A program made the position numbers and the translations under genes. Of a stretch of 36,595 nucleotides of DNA, positions 1 through 12,185 are shown in pieces. Where the stretch lies: positions 1-36,595 of IMG/VR virus record IMGVR_UViG_3300042477_000074; one strand, given 5' to 3'. Positions within the stretch are counted from its first letter, which is position 1; the number at the start of each line of letters is the position of its first letter. A model generated the notes under the pieces. It saw nothing but the letters and a program-made list of their open reading frames with translations. It did no database searches and was not told where the DNA came from. Source of the stretch: a virus.

Positions 1-154
1 CACGCAAAAATGCACATCTTCGCCAATTAGACCACCCGCCCCCCATACTACATCAAACCAGGGTTGGGGCATAGCGTCAAACACAGACTTATGGGTTAAG
101 ACAACCCCAAAACCTACAGCAGTCACAGCCTCGATACCCTTCTTACCGCGACTC
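1..154. repeat. Terminal direct repeat, left copy (circular overlap)
   Basis: Bases 1-154 match bases 36442-36595 except at position 28 (t here, c at 36469). The coding frame of a glycosyltransferase continues through the repeat from one end to the other, so this is most simply the overlap of a circular assembly. A true terminal redundancy is less likely, because it would break that gene at each end. The difference is in the third base of a Leu codon (CTA/CTG) and is silent, which suggests a population variant or a read error. Confidence 0.93.
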
Positions 155-522
155 TCGATCTTCTCAAAGATCTCCTTGTCTTGATGGAAGTTTATGGCCG
201 TGGGCAATACAGGCTTTCGCCGCGTAACCGCATTGACCCCGACGATTTGTTTGCCGTGTGCTAACAGTCGTTCTAACGTGTTCTTTGGGAACCTCATATC
301 CGAGTCCACCCAAAGAATGTACTCAGCACCATCGGCTAAGGCTTCTTTGGCTAGCGACTCTCTCTGACTGAATATGAGAGTGCCTGGTGCGGTGTACAAG
401 AGGAACGATCCTCCTGTTAACGCGCATCTATTGGCCCCATCGTATGCCGCCAAACGAGCCATATCAAAAGACGTTCCCGTCATCATCGTGTCCCGACATG
501 GGACGCAAAAAGCGACTTTCAT
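1..522 (-). CDS. GT-A type glycosyltransferase, N-terminal 174 residues (continues at 36298-36441)
   Basis: Likely cytoplasmic sugar transferase; the acceptor is unknown. The start ATG at 520-522 overlaps the stop of the preceding gene (ATGA). The N-terminus MKVAFCVPCRD and a WVDSDM motif (DSD at residues 73-75) fit a GT-A fold with a metal-binding DxD. GLIGEDVHF follows at about 164-172, where such enzymes carry a late acidic motif. The frame runs off the window at base 1 and resumes at 36441 for 47 more codons, giving 221 residues in all, a usual size for compact phage glycosyltransferases. The family and DxD are visible; modification of a capsid, tail or host surface sugar is inference. 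Confidence 0.8.
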   Translation of the reverse strand, partial: MKVAFCVPCRDTMMTGTSFDMARLAAYDGANRCALTGGSFLLYTAPGTLIFSQRESLAKEALADGAEYILWVDSDMRFPKNTLERLLAHGKQIVGVNAVTRRKPVLPTAINFHQDKEIFEKIESRGKKGIEAVTAVGFGVVLTHKSVFDAMPQPWFDVVWGAGGLIGEDVHFCV

Positions 523-806
523 ACTTTACCTGGCCTCGTCCTGAAGTGTCTGTTCTCTGGGTCGTTCATCCACGCCCTGAATCTTTTTTCGTCGATCACC
601 GCAAACCCTCGCATGATGCCCTTGGCGTTGAGGTCATCAACAACAACGAAGGGAAGCTGTGCGTAGCGTGTCCACTCTCCCCATCGCTCACGCTCGTCTG
701 TGGCGTTATACAGGGCTTTGTTCTGCTCGACGATGTCAGTTATCTCTTGCGTTCTCTGGAACACAAACTGATCGTCGGTAGCGTGAAATGTTGTCTTTGT
801 GCTCAT
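519..806 (-). CDS. Small hypothetical protein (95 aa)
   Basis: Not recognised. It is a mixed-charge soluble protein with no membrane segment and a central strand-like stretch (LPFVVVDDL). It lies between the major capsid gene and the glycosyltransferase and is coupled to the latter by ATGA. Its ATG at 804-806 comes immediately after the T-run of an intrinsic terminator, and no Shine-Dalgarno sits at a normal distance. The nearest GGGAGG lies in the hairpin arm about 21 bases upstream. It probably depends on read-through from the capsid unit. The position suggests a minor virion or glycosylation-related role, but nothing in the sequence proves it. Confidence 0.7.
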   Translation of the reverse strand: MSTKTTFHATDDQFVFQRTQEITDIVEQNKALYNATDERERWGEWTRYAQLPFVVVDDLNAKGIMRGFAVIDEKRFRAWMNDPENRHFRTRPGKV

Positions 807-840
807 AAAAAAAGGGAGGTTGTTACGCCTCCCTTCTTTT
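807..840 (-). terminator. Intrinsic terminator after the capsid gene
   Basis: On the minus strand AAGGGAGG pairs with CCTCCCTT (bases 835-828 with 819-812) around an 8-base loop, followed by a T-run at 813-807. The other strand also has a T-rich tail, so it may act both ways. It begins 17 bases after the capsid stop codon and ends directly at the ATG of the next gene. A strong stop after the capsid gene would limit expression of the downstream glycosyltransferase and tail unit. Confidence 0.85.
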
Positions 841-856
841 TACCACAGTTTATAAC

Positions 857-1813
857 TTAAGCAGTCTTCAGATCCGCGAGGATACCGTGGGCTGCTTCGT
901 TACGCATTTCCATCGTGAACTCAGCAAGAATCTGGGTCTTCTCAGAGTCACCAGTTTTTGCAAGCTCGTTCGTCTGGAACGGACGCAGATAACCAATCGC
1001 TGCGTACTCAGGGTCAAGGATGAACGCATCACGGCTACGGACGAAACGATCAGGTACAACAGAGATCGAGCCGAAGTCGCTCAGATAAACGTCAGCCGCG
1101 CCAATGATGGTCGTGGGAGCGTTATCGGGAGCCATGTAGCGCTGTGCTGCGATACCAGCAAAGGCAGACACCGTCTGCTTGAGAGCAGGACCAACCACGA
1201 GGATCTTAGGACTGCCGCCAGAGGTATAAACCTGCTGAACGCCATCCTTGAGGATTGCCTCGGTGAAGGTACGGGTCGTACCATCGCTACGGGTCGAAAC
1301 ACCGATGGTGGTGGGGTTAGCACCGTCCGTGGTGTTGTAGTTCGAGTTAGTCTTGAGCCAAGACAAAAGCGAACCCAACTTGCGAGCCGTGGACGAGTTG
1401 CCAGCACTGCGACCCTGGTTAGCAGCAAGGATCGTCTCTTGGTCACGCTTGAGTTCTTGCGAAGCCTTCGAGAGCTGATAAGCCTTCTCTGCGCGACGAC
1501 CTGCAAGGTCAACGGCCATCATGGTTCCTGACACCTGGATCGTTTTAGCAACGATCTGCGTGTAGTTACCGAGACGAGTCGTCGGGCTGATGGTTGCTGC
1601 TGTAGCGTCGTCACCTTCAACCTGTGCGTTGTTGGTTGTTGCTGCTGCCAACGTGTCGGTCTGCCACTCGTGGTAGACAGCCGTTGCTTTGGTGCGAGCA
1701 AGCGACGAAAGGATAGGTGTCTCGGTCGGGCTGATGTTGTAAATAACATCGGTTAGATCTTCACGCTGACCGATAGCTGTGAAGGTCTGGAATGTACCTG
1801 AAGGAACAGTCAT
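857..1813 (-). CDS. Major capsid protein, DUF5309/SU10 type
   Basis: Forms the icosahedral head shell. The N-terminal part (residues 14-50) has the family pattern: QREDLTDVIYNISPTETPIL, then a short basic segment and the YHEWQTDTL motif. The acidic-aromatic C-terminal region (RDAFILDPEYAAIGYLRPF) resembles the P-domain end of HK97-fold capsids of this family. At 318 residues it has normal length. It lies directly downstream of the scaffold gene and is followed by a terminator, the usual arrangement for a highly expressed shell gene. The start ATG at 1811-1813 follows an AGGAGT Shine-Dalgarno. The family assignment is from recognised motifs; the HK97 fold is known for the family. Confidence 0.9.
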   Translation of the reverse strand: MTVPSGTFQTFTAIGQREDLTDVIYNISPTETPILSSLARTKATAVYHEWQTDTLAAATTNNAQVEGDDATAATISPTTRLGNYTQIVAKTIQVSGTMMAVDLAGRRAEKAYQLSKASQELKRDQETILAANQGRSAGNSSTARKLGSLLSWLKTNSNYNTTDGANPTTIGVSTRSDGTTRTFTEAILKDGVQQVYTSGGSPKILVVGPALKQTVSAFAGIAAQRYMAPDNAPTTIIGAADVYLSDFGSISVVPDRFVRSRDAFILDPEYAAIGYLRPFQTNELAKTGDSEKTQILAEFTMEMRNEAAHGILADLKTA

Positions 1814-6584: not shown

Positions 6585-7841
6585 TTAGACCACCCAAGAT
6601 ACGTTAGGTTTCAGCGGCTTAGACCAACTCGTTGTTTCTGACATGCCAACCGCAAGATACCGAAATGCGTCAGAAGCATGAGATGCCCAATCGTGAAGAG
6701 GCTTATCCCAGTAAACTTGACGCTTATCGTCGTATTGTCTCCGATAATTGCGTAGTGCGTCCACTCCGCGCTTAGTCTTGGAGTCGAACCAACAAAAGGG
6801 AATCAGCCTTCTCACGGCTTGTATCCCATCGTCAACACCCATTCTCGGAACAATCGTGATGTTTAGCCCTGCTTCTTGCAGGAGTTCTAACCTAGACCTT
6901 CCTGATCCCAACTCCCGCACTTGTACATCGTGAGGCAGTAATTGCTCGGCCAGTTCGTAGTGATTTGTTCTCAGCCAGTTCACATACCAATCGAGCCCTT
7001 GACCGTGGTTCTCCACAAAGTCAATGAGTCGTGTTTCTAGGCCAACTCTCTGACAAACCCAGATCGCAGTGGAATCGCCTATCCCTAAGTCCCAAGCTGC
7101 GTAAGTCTTAGCTAATCCGTCTACAGGGATGTCGTGGAATCGCTCAGACGGTAGCTCATTGAGAAGCTGTCCGTAGTAACTTCCCTCGATCGCTGAGTCA
7201 AAGGAACACTCAAACTCTTGCAGGTACTTGTCATCTCCCATTTCGGACTTAGCTGCATCGAGTTCAGTCTGAGGGATAAGACCAGTTTCGGATGCTCGGA
7301 ACTCAAGCAGTGCCCAATCGTTATGCTGCTCTGCATGGTCTCTTAGGGTCTTGAAGTGGTTGTTTCCCTTTGGGGTCCCAAGGAATAGGGCCCATCCCAT
7401 TCTGTCCGACAGGGCCGGACGAACCACTTCCGACCAAATTTTAGGGTTCTGGTCGCCGAATTCGTCGAATACAACCCCGTCAAAATACTGTCCTCTAAGA
7501 GAGTCTGGGTTATCAGACCCCGCAAGTTGGATGCGTCTGCCCCAGAAATCAACCCTAAGTTCTGCAATATTGGCGGTGGCGTTAAGGGGCTCGGTAAACT
7601 TGAGCAGGTAATCCCAGATAACTCGTTTGGTCTGAGAGTAGGTAGGCCCAATAAACGCATATCTTGGAGCCTCCTTGTTGTTTTCTATCGCTGCTCTGAT
7701 GAGATGGTTGATCGCAGATACCGACTTTCCACATCTTCTGTGCGCGACAACAACGGCAAAACGCTTATCTGATAGCGCATTGTGGATCTGAAGTTGCTGC
7801 TCCCTAGGCGCATAAGGGATGACTATTCGGGTTGCGCCCAT
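6585..7841 (-). CDS. terL: Terminase large subunit
   Basis: ATP-driven DNA packaging motor and headful or site-specific nuclease. Visible motifs: Walker A VVAHRRCGKS (residues 31-40), Walker B DGVVFDEF (121-128, catalytic Glu next to Asp), a coupling motif LGTPKGN (about 154-160), and nuclease carboxylates Asp251 (AWDLGIGDS), Asp274/Glu277 and Asp391 (ASHASDAFRY). All ATPase and RuvC-like nuclease elements appear intact. The length of 418 is on the short side but usual for podophages. The ATG overlaps the end of the small subunit by 19 bases, indicating coupled translation. Confidence 0.95.
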   Translation of the reverse strand: MGATRIVIPYAPREQQLQIHNALSDKRFAVVVAHRRCGKSVSAINHLIRAAIENNKEAPRYAFIGPTYSQTKRVIWDYLLKFTEPLNATANIAELRVDFWGRRIQLAGSDNPDSLRGQYFDGVVFDEFGDQNPKIWSEVVRPALSDRMGWALFLGTPKGNNHFKTLRDHAEQHNDWALLEFRASETGLIPQTELDAAKSEMGDDKYLQEFECSFDSAIEGSYYGQLLNELPSERFHDIPVDGLAKTYAAWDLGIGDSTAIWVCQRVGLETRLIDFVENHGQGLDWYVNWLRTNHYELAEQLLPHDVQVRELGSGRSRLELLQEAGLNITIVPRMGVDDGIQAVRRLIPFCWFDSKTKRGVDALRNYRRQYDDKRQVYWDKPLHDWASHASDAFRYLAVGMSETTSWSKPLKPNVSWVV

Positions 7842-8128
7842 GAGATCTGCATCGCAACTGGTTGACCGTCAGTTCCCGTTACCTCTGTTCGCGCTAATTT
7901 AGGTATGTGGTACTCGATTGCTCTCAGGTAAATGTCGCAAGCCTTCTCTGGGCTCTTCTGAGCCACTTCATCTAGCCACATTGCGAACCTCGGAGCGTTC
8001 ATCTCAGCCATTTTTGCAATGGCTTCCCTCACCGCGGCAGTGGACTTATTAGGCGAACCCTTTGGTCTCCCATTGCCAGCAGCCGGTGGAATCTTTTTCT
8101 CAGTATCTTCAGATTGTTTAGTGTCCAT
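7823..8128 (-). CDS. Probable terminase small subunit
   Basis: A 101-residue protein immediately upstream of the large terminase, overlapping it by 19 bases. The N-terminal segment GNGRPKGSPNKSTAAVREAI (residues 19-38) is the basic motif seen in many small terminases and packaging-associated DNA-binding proteins, and a helical part follows (EVAQKSPEKACDIYLRAIEY). It would recognise the pac/cos site and load the large subunit. No obvious Shine-Dalgarno precedes the ATG; the 21-base gap upstream is A-rich. The call rests on the motif and gene order. Confidence 0.72.
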   Translation of the reverse strand: MDTKQSEDTEKKIPPAAGNGRPKGSPNKSTAAVREAIAKMAEMNAPRFAMWLDEVAQKSPEKACDIYLRAIEYHIPKLARTEVTGTDGQPVAMQISWAQPE

Positions 8129-10594: not shown

Positions 10595-11283
10595 TCGGTA
10601 GGGATTCTGTAGTGCCTTGCTATCCCTGGCTCGTTTTTCCACATCCATTTTGAAGCCTCCATGAGGTTTTTACGGTCATCCTTGCCGACTGTCTGAGATC
10701 CGGCGTGATGAACGTAAGCCCTTGATACGAAATGCCTAAAGTCTAATACCGTTAGTGTATGACAAAACACATTATCTGAGAACCAATTTATAGGAGGAAA
10801 CCTGACCTGACTAAAAGCCTCCTTTGAGACGTAGGCAAAGATAGGCGCAATCACAGACACTTCCTTGATCGTCTGTTCTTCAGCCCATCTAATCCCATCT
10901 CTTGGGCCAGACTCATATCGAATATTCTGGTCCGCAAGGATGAAGTCAGACCTGCACCCAACAACACCGACCTTATGCCCTGCTTCCTTCAGATACTGGA
11001 CATCCTCACAAAGAAGCCTGTAGGAATCAGGAGTCAGACATATATCGTCGTTGGCTATGATGACTTCATCGTAATGCTGGAAGGCATCGTCCATGATCCT
11101 GTTGTAAGCGTCACCGAAGTTACTCTGCGAGTTGAGTAGCCATTTGTAAACTCGTGGGTCCATTGTCTCGGACCTGCTCGACAGATAAACAGGCGCTTCT
11201 TTGGCGTATAAGCTAATGCTCGACAGCGTGATTTCAAGGCTTGGCGATCCTGTCGTGCATATCAAAATTGGTAATTTTTTCAT
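10591..11283 (-). CDS. Glycosyltransferase-like protein (230 aa)
   Basis: Cytoplasmic sugar transferase by appearance. The N-terminus MKKLPILICTTGSPSLE resembles GT2-type enzymes, and an acidic motif VIIANDDICLTP lies at about residues 68-79, at the position of the DxD metal site. SDNVFCHTL and a late HHAGSQT follow. I take the ATG at 11281-11283, after GGAGGGG, and not the in-frame start at 11361, because family-like sequence begins there. It overlaps the preceding gene by 50 bases. It differs in family from both other glycosyltransferases here. The acceptor is unknown. Confidence 0.72.
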   Translation of the reverse strand: MKKLPILICTTGSPSLEITLSSISLYAKEAPVYLSSRSETMDPRVYKWLLNSQSNFGDAYNRIMDDAFQHYDEVIIANDDICLTPDSYRLLCEDVQYLKEAGHKVGVVGCRSDFILADQNIRYESGPRDGIRWAEEQTIKEVSVIAPIFAYVSKEAFSQVRFPPINWFSDNVFCHTLTVLDFRHFVSRAYVHHAGSQTVGKDDRKNLMEASKWMWKNEPGIARHYRIPTE

Positions 11284-11944
11284 ACCCCTCCATTCTGTGG
11301 CCTGCAACCACCTGGAAATATTCGTTATCCATGAGATGTTTGTCGCAACCGTTGACAACAATCCCGTGAGTCTGAGCTAGAACAGGAAACGCAATCTGAT
11401 CGTGTAGTGACCATTCCTTGATTTCTGTCCACCAGGCATCCAGAAACGTAGCAACGTGATCTGACCGTAGATAACCACCATGCCAGCACATAATGCCTGT
11501 CGCAACCTGTCCGGCCTTCTCCGGCCACCCCATTTGCCTGTAATGCTCAACTTGCTGTCTTACCGGCTGATCGACGTACTTTCTCATATTCCATGACTCC
11601 TCGGCCTCCTCGTAAATGCAATCTCTCCAAGGGTGCTGGAACATTGCAACCGTATCGCCAGCCTGGGAAATCATGTACTCGACAAATTTAGGACTTGTGA
11701 TCCTGATGGAACCGTCAATCCAAATGACGTAATCCTCAACAGGAAAAAACTGGTTGATGTGTGTTTTGTAGTACCGAGCTTCTAGTCTTGCCTCTCTTTT
11801 AGGATGGATGACCAACTGCTTCCATCCCTGCGTCTCAGGCATAGTGTCCAGAAGGACGTAGAAGTCCGTAGGAACGCTTTGTTTGACGGCGTAGTGTAGT
11901 GGGTCATGCGATCCGAAAATCGCGCTAAAAACGGCTGCTTTCAT
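11234..11944 (-). CDS. DUF616-type glycosyltransferase (236 aa)
   Basis: Recognised as DUF616 (TOD1/MUCI70-type glycosyltransferase). The N-terminus is AAVFSAIFGSHDPL, then come YVIWIDGSIRI (residues about 72-82, with Asp as the likely metal ligand), AMFQHPWRDCIYEEAE (about 99-114), and a later HDQIAFP. These are the main conserved words of the family. The ATG at 11942-11944 immediately follows the T-run of an intrinsic terminator and also overlaps the stop of a 19-codon frame. It begins the transcription unit that contains the packaging and capsid genes. The acceptor is unknown; a virion or host glycan is plausible. Confidence 0.8.
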   Translation of the reverse strand: MKAAVFSAIFGSHDPLHYAVKQSVPTDFYVLLDTMPETQGWKQLVIHPKREARLEARYYKTHINQFFPVEDYVIWIDGSIRITSPKFVEYMISQAGDTVAMFQHPWRDCIYEEAEESWNMRKYVDQPVRQQVEHYRQMGWPEKAGQVATGIMCWHGGYLRSDHVATFLDAWWTEIKEWSLHDQIAFPVLAQTHGIVVNGCDKHLMDNEYFQVVAGHRMEGYEKITNFDMHDRIAKP

Positions 11945-12000
11945 ACAAAAAAACGCCCAACGTCGCGTCGGGCAAAGGAGGGGAAGGAGCCAACTTTCAT
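11941..12000 (-). CDS. Possible 19-codon leader frame across a terminator
   Basis: The ATG at 11998-12000 overlaps the TGA of the upstream 62-residue gene. The frame (MKVGSFPSFARRDVGRF and two more residues) passes through the terminator hairpin and T-run, and its TGA at 11941-11943 overlaps the ATG of the glycosyltransferase. It has no clear start signal of its own and no recognised product. If translated, ribosomes would occupy the hairpin and could affect termination and re-initiate at the next gene. Confidence 0.28.
   Translation of the reverse strand: MKVGSFPSFARRDVGRFFV
11947..11973 (-). terminator. Intrinsic terminator before the glycosyltransferase/packaging unit
   Basis: On the minus strand GCCCGAC pairs with GTTGGGC (7 pairs including one G-T) around a 5-base loop, followed by G and seven T. 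It lies 24 bases after the stop of the 62-residue gene and 2 bases before the next ATG. It separates the early accessory genes (16557-11997) from the glycosyltransferase, packaging and head genes. Confidence 0.8.
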
Positions 12001-12185
12001 TTTAACCCATACCTTATTTCTTTGAGAATCTCCTCTGCTTGCAATCTCAGGTCTATGGCTTTCCTGTGTAGCTCTACAGAAAGATTGACAATTGCTAGTG
12101 CTCGTTGTTCAAGAGCACTTGTTGACTGTGCCTGCTCGATGATGTCTTGTGCTGCACTCATGGCTGCTGCTTCGTGTAAGTTCAT
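11997..12185 (-). CDS. Small helical hypothetical protein (62 aa)
   Basis: Not recognised. Almost the whole product is predicted helix by composition (AAAMSAAQDIIEQAQSTSAL and later ELHRKAIDLRLQAEEIL), without Cys or Trp. It starts in ATGA overlap with the winged-helix gene and is the last gene before a strong terminator. A coiled-coil partner protein is possible. Confidence 0.62.
   Translation of the reverse strand: MNLHEAAAMSAAQDIIEQAQSTSALEQRALAIVNLSVELHRKAIDLRLQAEEILKEIRYGLK

Follow-up and report, generated by a model that had tools for sequence, protein, structure and literature searches.

A single late operon has to provide a phage with far more copies of the capsid subunit than of neck or tail parts, and stop signals placed after the capsid gene are a known route to making far more shell protein than neighbouring products. 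The DNA analysed here (the window, a 36,595-base record of an uncultivated virus of bacteria) raises the question of what such a signal does when its T-run ends directly at the start codon of the next gene. An initial annotation had reported an intrinsic terminator of this kind at 807-840, together with a second one elsewhere, each near a glycosyltransferase, and had read the pair as a design based either on read-through at a fixed fraction or on an antiterminator acting late. Our analyses lead us to regard the capsid-end hairpin as likely to be the intrinsic terminator of the capsid unit and its 3' hairpin, a step-down device within the late operon, which probably also protects the capsid mRNA.

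Anatomy of the capsid-end junction

Reading the sequence directly confirmed the reported terminator exactly, including the contact between its T-run and the ATG of the gene after the capsid gene. The features of the junction are as follows.

857 to 1813, minus strand: major capsid gene (SU10_MCP, PF17236; phrog_1328), from profile matches and relatives
859-857, minus strand: capsid stop codon TAA, read directly
834 to 840, minus strand: A-rich tract 5' of the stem, able to pair with the T-run, from sequence and folding
814 to 833, minus strand: GC hairpin core GGGAGG-loop-CCTCCC, the putative intrinsic-terminator stem, from sequence, folding and conservation
833-828 and 819-814, minus strand: the two stem arms, GGGAGG and CCTCCC, with the loop between them, read directly
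807 to 813, minus strand: seven-T tract adjoining the start codon, read directly
519 to 806, minus strand: phrog_3982 gene, 95 aa, with its ATG (806-804) directly 3' of the T-run and without a Shine-Dalgarno (SD) sequence
1 to 522, minus strand: glycosyltransferase-like gene (phrog_1574; Anp1 match below the curated cut-off), sharing an ATGA overlap with the phrog_3982 gene and cut by the window end

The capsid gene is identified by a match to PF17236 at 1.5e-101, and the gene 3' of the hairpin by a match to phrog_3982 (1.2e-17). Between them lie the GC-rich hairpin and U-tract that characterize intrinsic terminators, here a six-pair core (five GC pairs and one AT pair), an extension and a T7 tract. 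Pairing of the A-tract with the T-run gives an extended stem of 13 pairs (-17.1 kcal/mol), and the capsid stop is 23 nt from the GC core and 16 nt from this extended stem. In the terminator scan, the capsid-end terminator appears only on the plus strand, since on the minus strand the stem search absorbs the T-run into the stem; owing to the A-tract, the terminator is potentially bidirectional.

Consistent with the claim that no promoter separates the terminator from the ATG, a simple consensus scan listed no promoter-like site from 860 to 806 of the minus strand, nor did it list one anywhere in the capsid gene, whose 3' end had been named as a possible source of downstream transcripts. That candidate was rejected on this ground and because the window's TTATAA-like stretch is missing in the sister group, in which the capsid is mostly 97-99% identical to that of the window and the next protein 83-90%. 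No RNA polymerase was named among the 27 window proteins scanned, several large ones of which matched nothing. A scan against Rfam at gathering scores returned one RNA, int-alpA (RF02996; 16116-16183, minus strand; 42.8 bits, the gathering score being 35.8), which lies 15 kb from the capsid-end site. For the phrog_3982 protein, the predicted structure (pLDDT 76.7) had no significant match among solved structures and seven significant matches in BFVD, all to uncharacterised or unnamed proteins; since these matches give no function, they yield no argument from the copy number of the product.

To gauge chance expectation, an arrangement was counted as fused where a stem of at least 6 pairs and a T-run are followed by a start within 5-12 nt of the stem. 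Two of the 34 chosen minus-strand starts (806 and 11944) have this arrangement, compared with 0.01 expected per window under a first-order Markov null (3 of 10,200 upstream regions). The report of two occurrences is thus upheld, except that at the second site the bases GT separate the T-run from the ATG.

Conservation of the hairpin and selection on RNA

Relatives were sampled as the best 80 of at least 600 matches in each of four capsid scans. The resulting 368 sequences (367 loci and the window, many loci being different cuts of one contig) contained 363 capsid matches and 362 stops, and the 347 capsids of at least 285 aa were grouped at 95% identity into 60 lineages, which represent a sample. 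A hairpin of -10 kcal/mol or better within 75 nt of the capsid stop was found in 56 of the 60 lineages, compared with 2.8% of 1,200 control windows drawn from these loci. The remaining four (L162, L163, L169 and L174) are all GenBank genomes; folding of the whole junction found longer or bulged hairpins in L162, L163 and L174, and L169 has an 11-nt gap with no hairpin.

Stem sequences turn over widely, with 67 distinct stems among 114 of the 116 distinct junctions. Non-Watson-Crick pairs inside these stems comprise 80 G-U, 5 A-C and 17 others; the stems are related, which would overstate a computed p-value, so that none is claimed, but the direction of the G-U excess is clear. The 80:5 ratio of G-U over A-C indicates that selection acts on the transcribed sense-strand RNA of the hairpin and disfavours a palindrome maintained at the DNA level. 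The idea of a design thus stands as far as a conserved and selected arrangement is concerned.

The T-run behaves differently from the hairpin. A T-rich tail (at least 5 of 8 T) is present in 29 of 60 lineages, and a terminator score was positive in 29 of 59 (the window scores 33, T7 Tphi 32 and M13 60). Of the 56 lineages with a good hairpin, half (28) have no T-run and resemble in this respect the stable hairpins without a U-tract known from programmed mRNA decay; termination therefore cannot be the whole of the conserved function. On the capsid tree, the T-run character must have changed at least 10 times, 6 of these changes being forced by starred branches; this gain and loss of the T-run while the hairpin, and in one clade a spacing of 6-7 nt, persist is new here.

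Two further candidates were discarded. No conserved minigene between the capsid stop and the hairpin was found by eye. Readthrough of the capsid stop was dropped as not conserved, since the frame is open in the window as far as a TGA overlapping the ATG and closed in the sister group; in the L044 group, the readthrough frame is in phase with the next gene.

The start of the next gene

As had been claimed, no normal SD precedes the phrog_3982 gene: its best anti-SD pairing (+0.9 kcal/mol) is the second worst among the 52 listed ORFs. An SD-less start is by itself not rare in the window, since 23 of these 52 ORFs (for example 7823-8128) have no SD word within 20 nt. Across the lineages, an SD word precedes the capsid start in 59 of 60 and the start of the next gene in 27 of 60, or 21 of 60 if the SD must lie free of the hairpin. 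Median anti-SD energies differ little (-5.95 kcal/mol for capsid genes, -4.7 for the next gene), perhaps because G-rich stems are counted as SD-like. Opening the start region of the phrog_3982 gene would cost 15.0 kcal/mol, the third highest value of 30 window genes, and the median is 16.0 kcal/mol over the 34 lineages with tails of up to 12 nt (a set that includes L169), compared with 6.2 for 60 capsid starts. Starts were assigned to the first in-frame ATG 3' of the stem, a choice biased towards short tails; as a check, the next 25 codons of the 24 fused lineages were searched, and none of these lineages has a downstream in-frame start with an SD word.

The distance from stem to start proved to be bimodal in lineages with a T-run, which is also new here: among the 28 with a good hairpin it is 6-8 nt in 17 and at least 17 nt in 11, with none between. 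Among the 28 lineages without a T-run, it is 4-8 nt in 7, 9-12 nt in 9 and at least 15 nt in 12. (Short tails number 26 in the raw count, or 24 once L169 and L174, which have no good hairpin, are excluded.) The longer-tail class is roomy enough for an SD, as in LUZ24, T7 and M13. One clade of five lineages (L072, L212, L244, L252 and L313; 99% SH-aLRT in a quick tree) retains a tail of 6-7 nt in all five members and a T-run in two, the T-run-less tails being CCCTAAT, TGCTTAC and TTCCAT. In a neighbouring clade of 11 lineages without T-runs, tails range from 7 to 12 nt and two contain an SD word, which counts against a general spacing rule.

The gene 3' of the hairpin is usually phrog_3982. In three lineages a glycosyltransferase stands between the hairpin and the later genes (L306, a GT11 of PF01531; L315 and L321, by likeness), and in two an HNH-type gene stands at the hairpin (L207, PF13392; L344, by likeness). 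These inserted genes start 4-7 nt past the stem, and in L306 and L207 phrog_3982 is the gene that follows the insertion. That the hairpin is constant whatever gene follows implies that it belongs to the capsid unit. The edge of the hairpin in these five lineages is a possible insertion hot spot.

Additional variation was observed around the stem. Six loci (L004, L036, L092, L096, L098 and L103) carry tandem 10-base repeats (GCTCGYTAAG-like) between the T-run and the ATG; in some near relatives, within the window's own clade, these repeats or a single unit provide an SD-like TAAGG, and copy number varies. Among the 56 lineages with a good hairpin, tails of up to 12 nt occur with 28 of 39 stems that have a G-rich 5' arm and with 5 of 17 that have a C-rich 5' arm.

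The second site

The second occurrence of a terminator next to a start codon comprises three features.

11234 to 11944, minus strand: glycosyltransferase-like gene (TOD1_MUCI70), whose start adjoins the terminator
11947 to 11974, minus strand: hairpin (11974-11954) and T-run, from the terminator scan and the sequence
11941 to 12000, minus strand: 19-codon ORF that spans the terminator and whose TGA overlaps the ATG at 11944

The ATG of the 19-codon ORF itself overlaps the TGA of an ORF at 11997-12185. From 48 second-site loci (L369-L416), L372 and L414 were left out as having no start, and all 47 usable sequences have the hairpin, T-run and ATGA. In 45 of these 47, the T-run is crossed by an ORF whose TGA overlaps the ATG. 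This ORF is the 18-19-codon frame in 42 sequences, another short frame in L384 and a long upstream ORF itself in L397 and L402; it is missing in L371, where the upstream sequence is cut off, and in L391. This arrangement suggests translational coupling, in which translation through the terminator would block the hairpin and bring ribosomes to the start of the glycosyltransferase gene. The 19-aa peptide is not clearly under selection, and no regulatory codon run or peptide was seen by eye in MKVGSFPSFARRDVGRFFV and its variants. In leader-ORF attenuators, a short ORF covers a terminator, so that translation should prevent formation of the hairpin. The second site resembles these attenuators in its short ORF over the terminator, but differs from them in having no regulatory codon run and in that its ORF ends on the next start codon.

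To judge from their sequences, the second site and the capsid end are different solutions, and the notion of one device used twice is not borne out: the capsid hairpin goes with the capsid gene, whereas the second hairpin and its glycosyltransferase stay together as a cassette behind varying upstream sequence. A glycosyltransferase is indeed present near both units, but at the capsid end it is the second gene after the hairpin, where it reflects ordinary gene order (phrog_1574 follows phrog_3982 in 5 of 5 relatives scanned with PHROGs).

A proposed step-down device and its alternatives

We propose that RNA polymerase, presumably that of the host, makes the hairpin and U7 just past the capsid gene and usually releases there, which would yield abundant capsid mRNA protected at its 3' end. 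Polymerases reading through, a minority, would then supply the phrog_3982 gene, the glycosyltransferase-like gene, the adaptor and later genes. The suggested read-through at a fixed fraction thereby survives in the form of a partial read-through step-down, the best reading of the site, with counterparts in LUZ24 and tf and in a prediction for UFV-P2. In the window's lineage, the start codon would have moved up against the U-tract, as close as it can come without damage to the terminator. With no room for an SD and a stem beside the AUG, the next gene should be weakly translated, which would act as a second brake.

Other readings share part of this evidence. It is quite conceivable, if on balance doubtful, that the contact between T-run and ATG is mere genome compaction, so that the terminator matters and the abutment does not; the gap in tail lengths among the 28 T-run lineages (6-8 nt in 17, at least 17 nt in 11) fits this reading, as would be expected of starts placed either directly behind the U-tract or at a distance that leaves room for an SD. 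Against it, a spacing of 6-7 nt persists in the clade where three of five members have no T-run, and the inserted GT11-like and HNH-like genes also begin 4-7 nt past the stem. These same observations would be explained if the spacing itself were selected, with a hairpin and an AUG 6-8 nt on forming an SD-free start module, which we consider improbable. RNA cut or ended past the stem would then leave a capsid mRNA protected at its 3' end and an mRNA of the next gene with no leader or almost none, or else the hairpin would place the 30S subunit; if true, this would account for a spacing that outlived the T-run in one clade without an SD replacing it, as well as for the starts of the inserted genes. 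Rather unlikely, in our judgement, is that the hairpin serves mainly as a barrier to 3'-5' exonucleases after cleavage downstream, termination being optional in T-run clades. The 28 of 56 lineages with a hairpin and no T-run, and the at least 10 changes of T-run state, favour such a barrier, as does the finding in E. coli, in the available portion of PMC5927463, that 26 of 34 stabilised upstream segments end just past a stable hairpin without a U-tract. The protective hairpins described there, however, lie inside the downstream gene, at 107 nt on average, and do not stand before its start; moreover, the T7 tract of the window is perfect, and distant relatives, LUZ24-like phages among them, again show a hairpin with a T-rich tail.

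An attenuator gated by the ribosome is unlikely as well. Here the ribosome terminating on the capsid gene would cover the first arm of the hairpin, so that heavy capsid translation would bring more read-through. The stop lies 6-12 nt from the first GC pair in 15 of 28 T-run lineages (median 12), and the accessible part of PMC4824070 describes the tR2 terminator as almost fully repressed at short distances between stop and terminator, with a plateau beyond 30 bp. Nevertheless, the distance from stop to stem is not conserved (6-25 nt), and in the same part of that source 17-18 bp gave about 0.12 and 0.8 in its two series; with such discordant series, the distances in the window yield no prediction. 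Gating by the capsid stop is plausible in lineages where stop and stem are 6-8 nt apart and uncertain in the window. Finally, a late antiterminator protein letting polymerase past both the capsid-end and the second site, as the initial annotation had envisaged, is very improbable, and no evidence for it was found. Two terminator-fused starts in one genome would accord with it, and the int-alpA match hints at AlpA-type regulation, with no link found to either site; by eye, however, the two sites share only a hairpin and a T-run, and the second has its own ORF through the terminator.

The relatives provide a natural series in which one junction is represented by dozens of hairpins, with or without a T-run or an SD and with different genes attached. 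With it, the way in which transcription stop, RNA protection and start-site strength are balanced can be tested directly.

Comparison with known systems

A pattern scan for GGGGG, 4-10 bases, CCCCC, T7 and ATG returned at least 80 loci in which the same string could be examined in unrelated phages. The ATG opens an ORF (at least 60 aa, or at least 30 aa if running off the contig) in 18 of the 80 listed loci, 16 of these after a same-strand ORF, and opens none in the other 62, which implies that the string alone means little. We classified 10 proteins from 6 of the 18 fused loci: the upstream genes belong to major head families in L430 and L480 and to SSB families in L436 and L475, and are a phosphate transporter in L484 and a weak HNH match in L486. 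That the string stands behind head and SSB genes in unrelated phages suggests that this solution recurs where a gene is highly expressed. L430 and the like-sized L440, L448, L466 and L491, of which only L430 was classified, form an unrelated group in which a major head gene is followed by the hairpin and T7, with the ATG of a tail gene (phrog_446) in direct contact.

Among the titles and abstracts listed in searches for start-fused and for post-capsid terminators, which left subscription journals mostly uncovered and so do not imply absence, none describes a terminator fused to a start codon, and a term search of the PaP3 transcriptome paper (PMC4707531) gave nothing on the capsid-end junction. 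Programmed-decay hairpins (malEFG, puf), as presented in the available text of PMC5927463, are stable hairpins that raise the level of upstream mRNA, a description that fits the lineages without a T-run; the window differs in its full U-tract, and the E. coli hairpins are described as embedded in the downstream gene.

Closer counterparts are found at the capsid junctions of other phages. In T7, the annotated terminator Tphi after gene 10 lies between the capsid gene and a tail gene, as the window's terminator follows its capsid gene, although in T7 the T-run is followed by AAAGGAGG and then by the ATG, unlike the direct contact in the window. Tphi is a partial terminator, and T7 transcribes with its own RNA polymerase. 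At the gene VIII / gene III junction of M13, a virus unrelated to that of the window, a hairpin and T-run stand between the major coat gene and another coat gene, with a GGAG 3' of the T-run placed as an SD; this hairpin acts as a terminator, and is not annotated as such in the record.

The nearest counterparts are Pseudomonas phage LUZ24, with an annotated rho-independent terminator between gp62 (major head) and gp61, and phage tf, with one 3' of its head gene. In both, as in the window, the terminator follows the scaffold-capsid pair and precedes a small gene. LUZ24-like capsids are homologous to that of the window (38.5% identity by tblastn for PaP4, of LUZ24's genus), and phrog_3982 homologues occur in the relatives NV1 (7e-4) and Lyrsu01 (1e-4), so that the window's terminator occupies the position of a LUZ24-like post-capsid terminator, between a homologous capsid gene and a phrog_3982-like gene. 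Similarly, according to the portion of PMC3890496 available, the last terminator of UFV-P2 lies where the major head gene ends, and two late modules are described on the basis of predicted terminators. The gene orders are not identical, as the 534-aa gene that the window carries between the portal gene and the small gene preceding the scaffold gene is not at that place in LUZ24. The main difference concerns the start of the next gene, which in LUZ24 and tf has its own SD (AGGAGG or AAGGA) after the terminator and an ATG 24-25 nt from the stem, whereas in the window the tail is 7 nt long and holds no SD. The capsid-end site is thus probably of a known kind, the post-capsid step-down terminator, and represents a conserved variant of it, with the start codon placed at the stem and without an SD.
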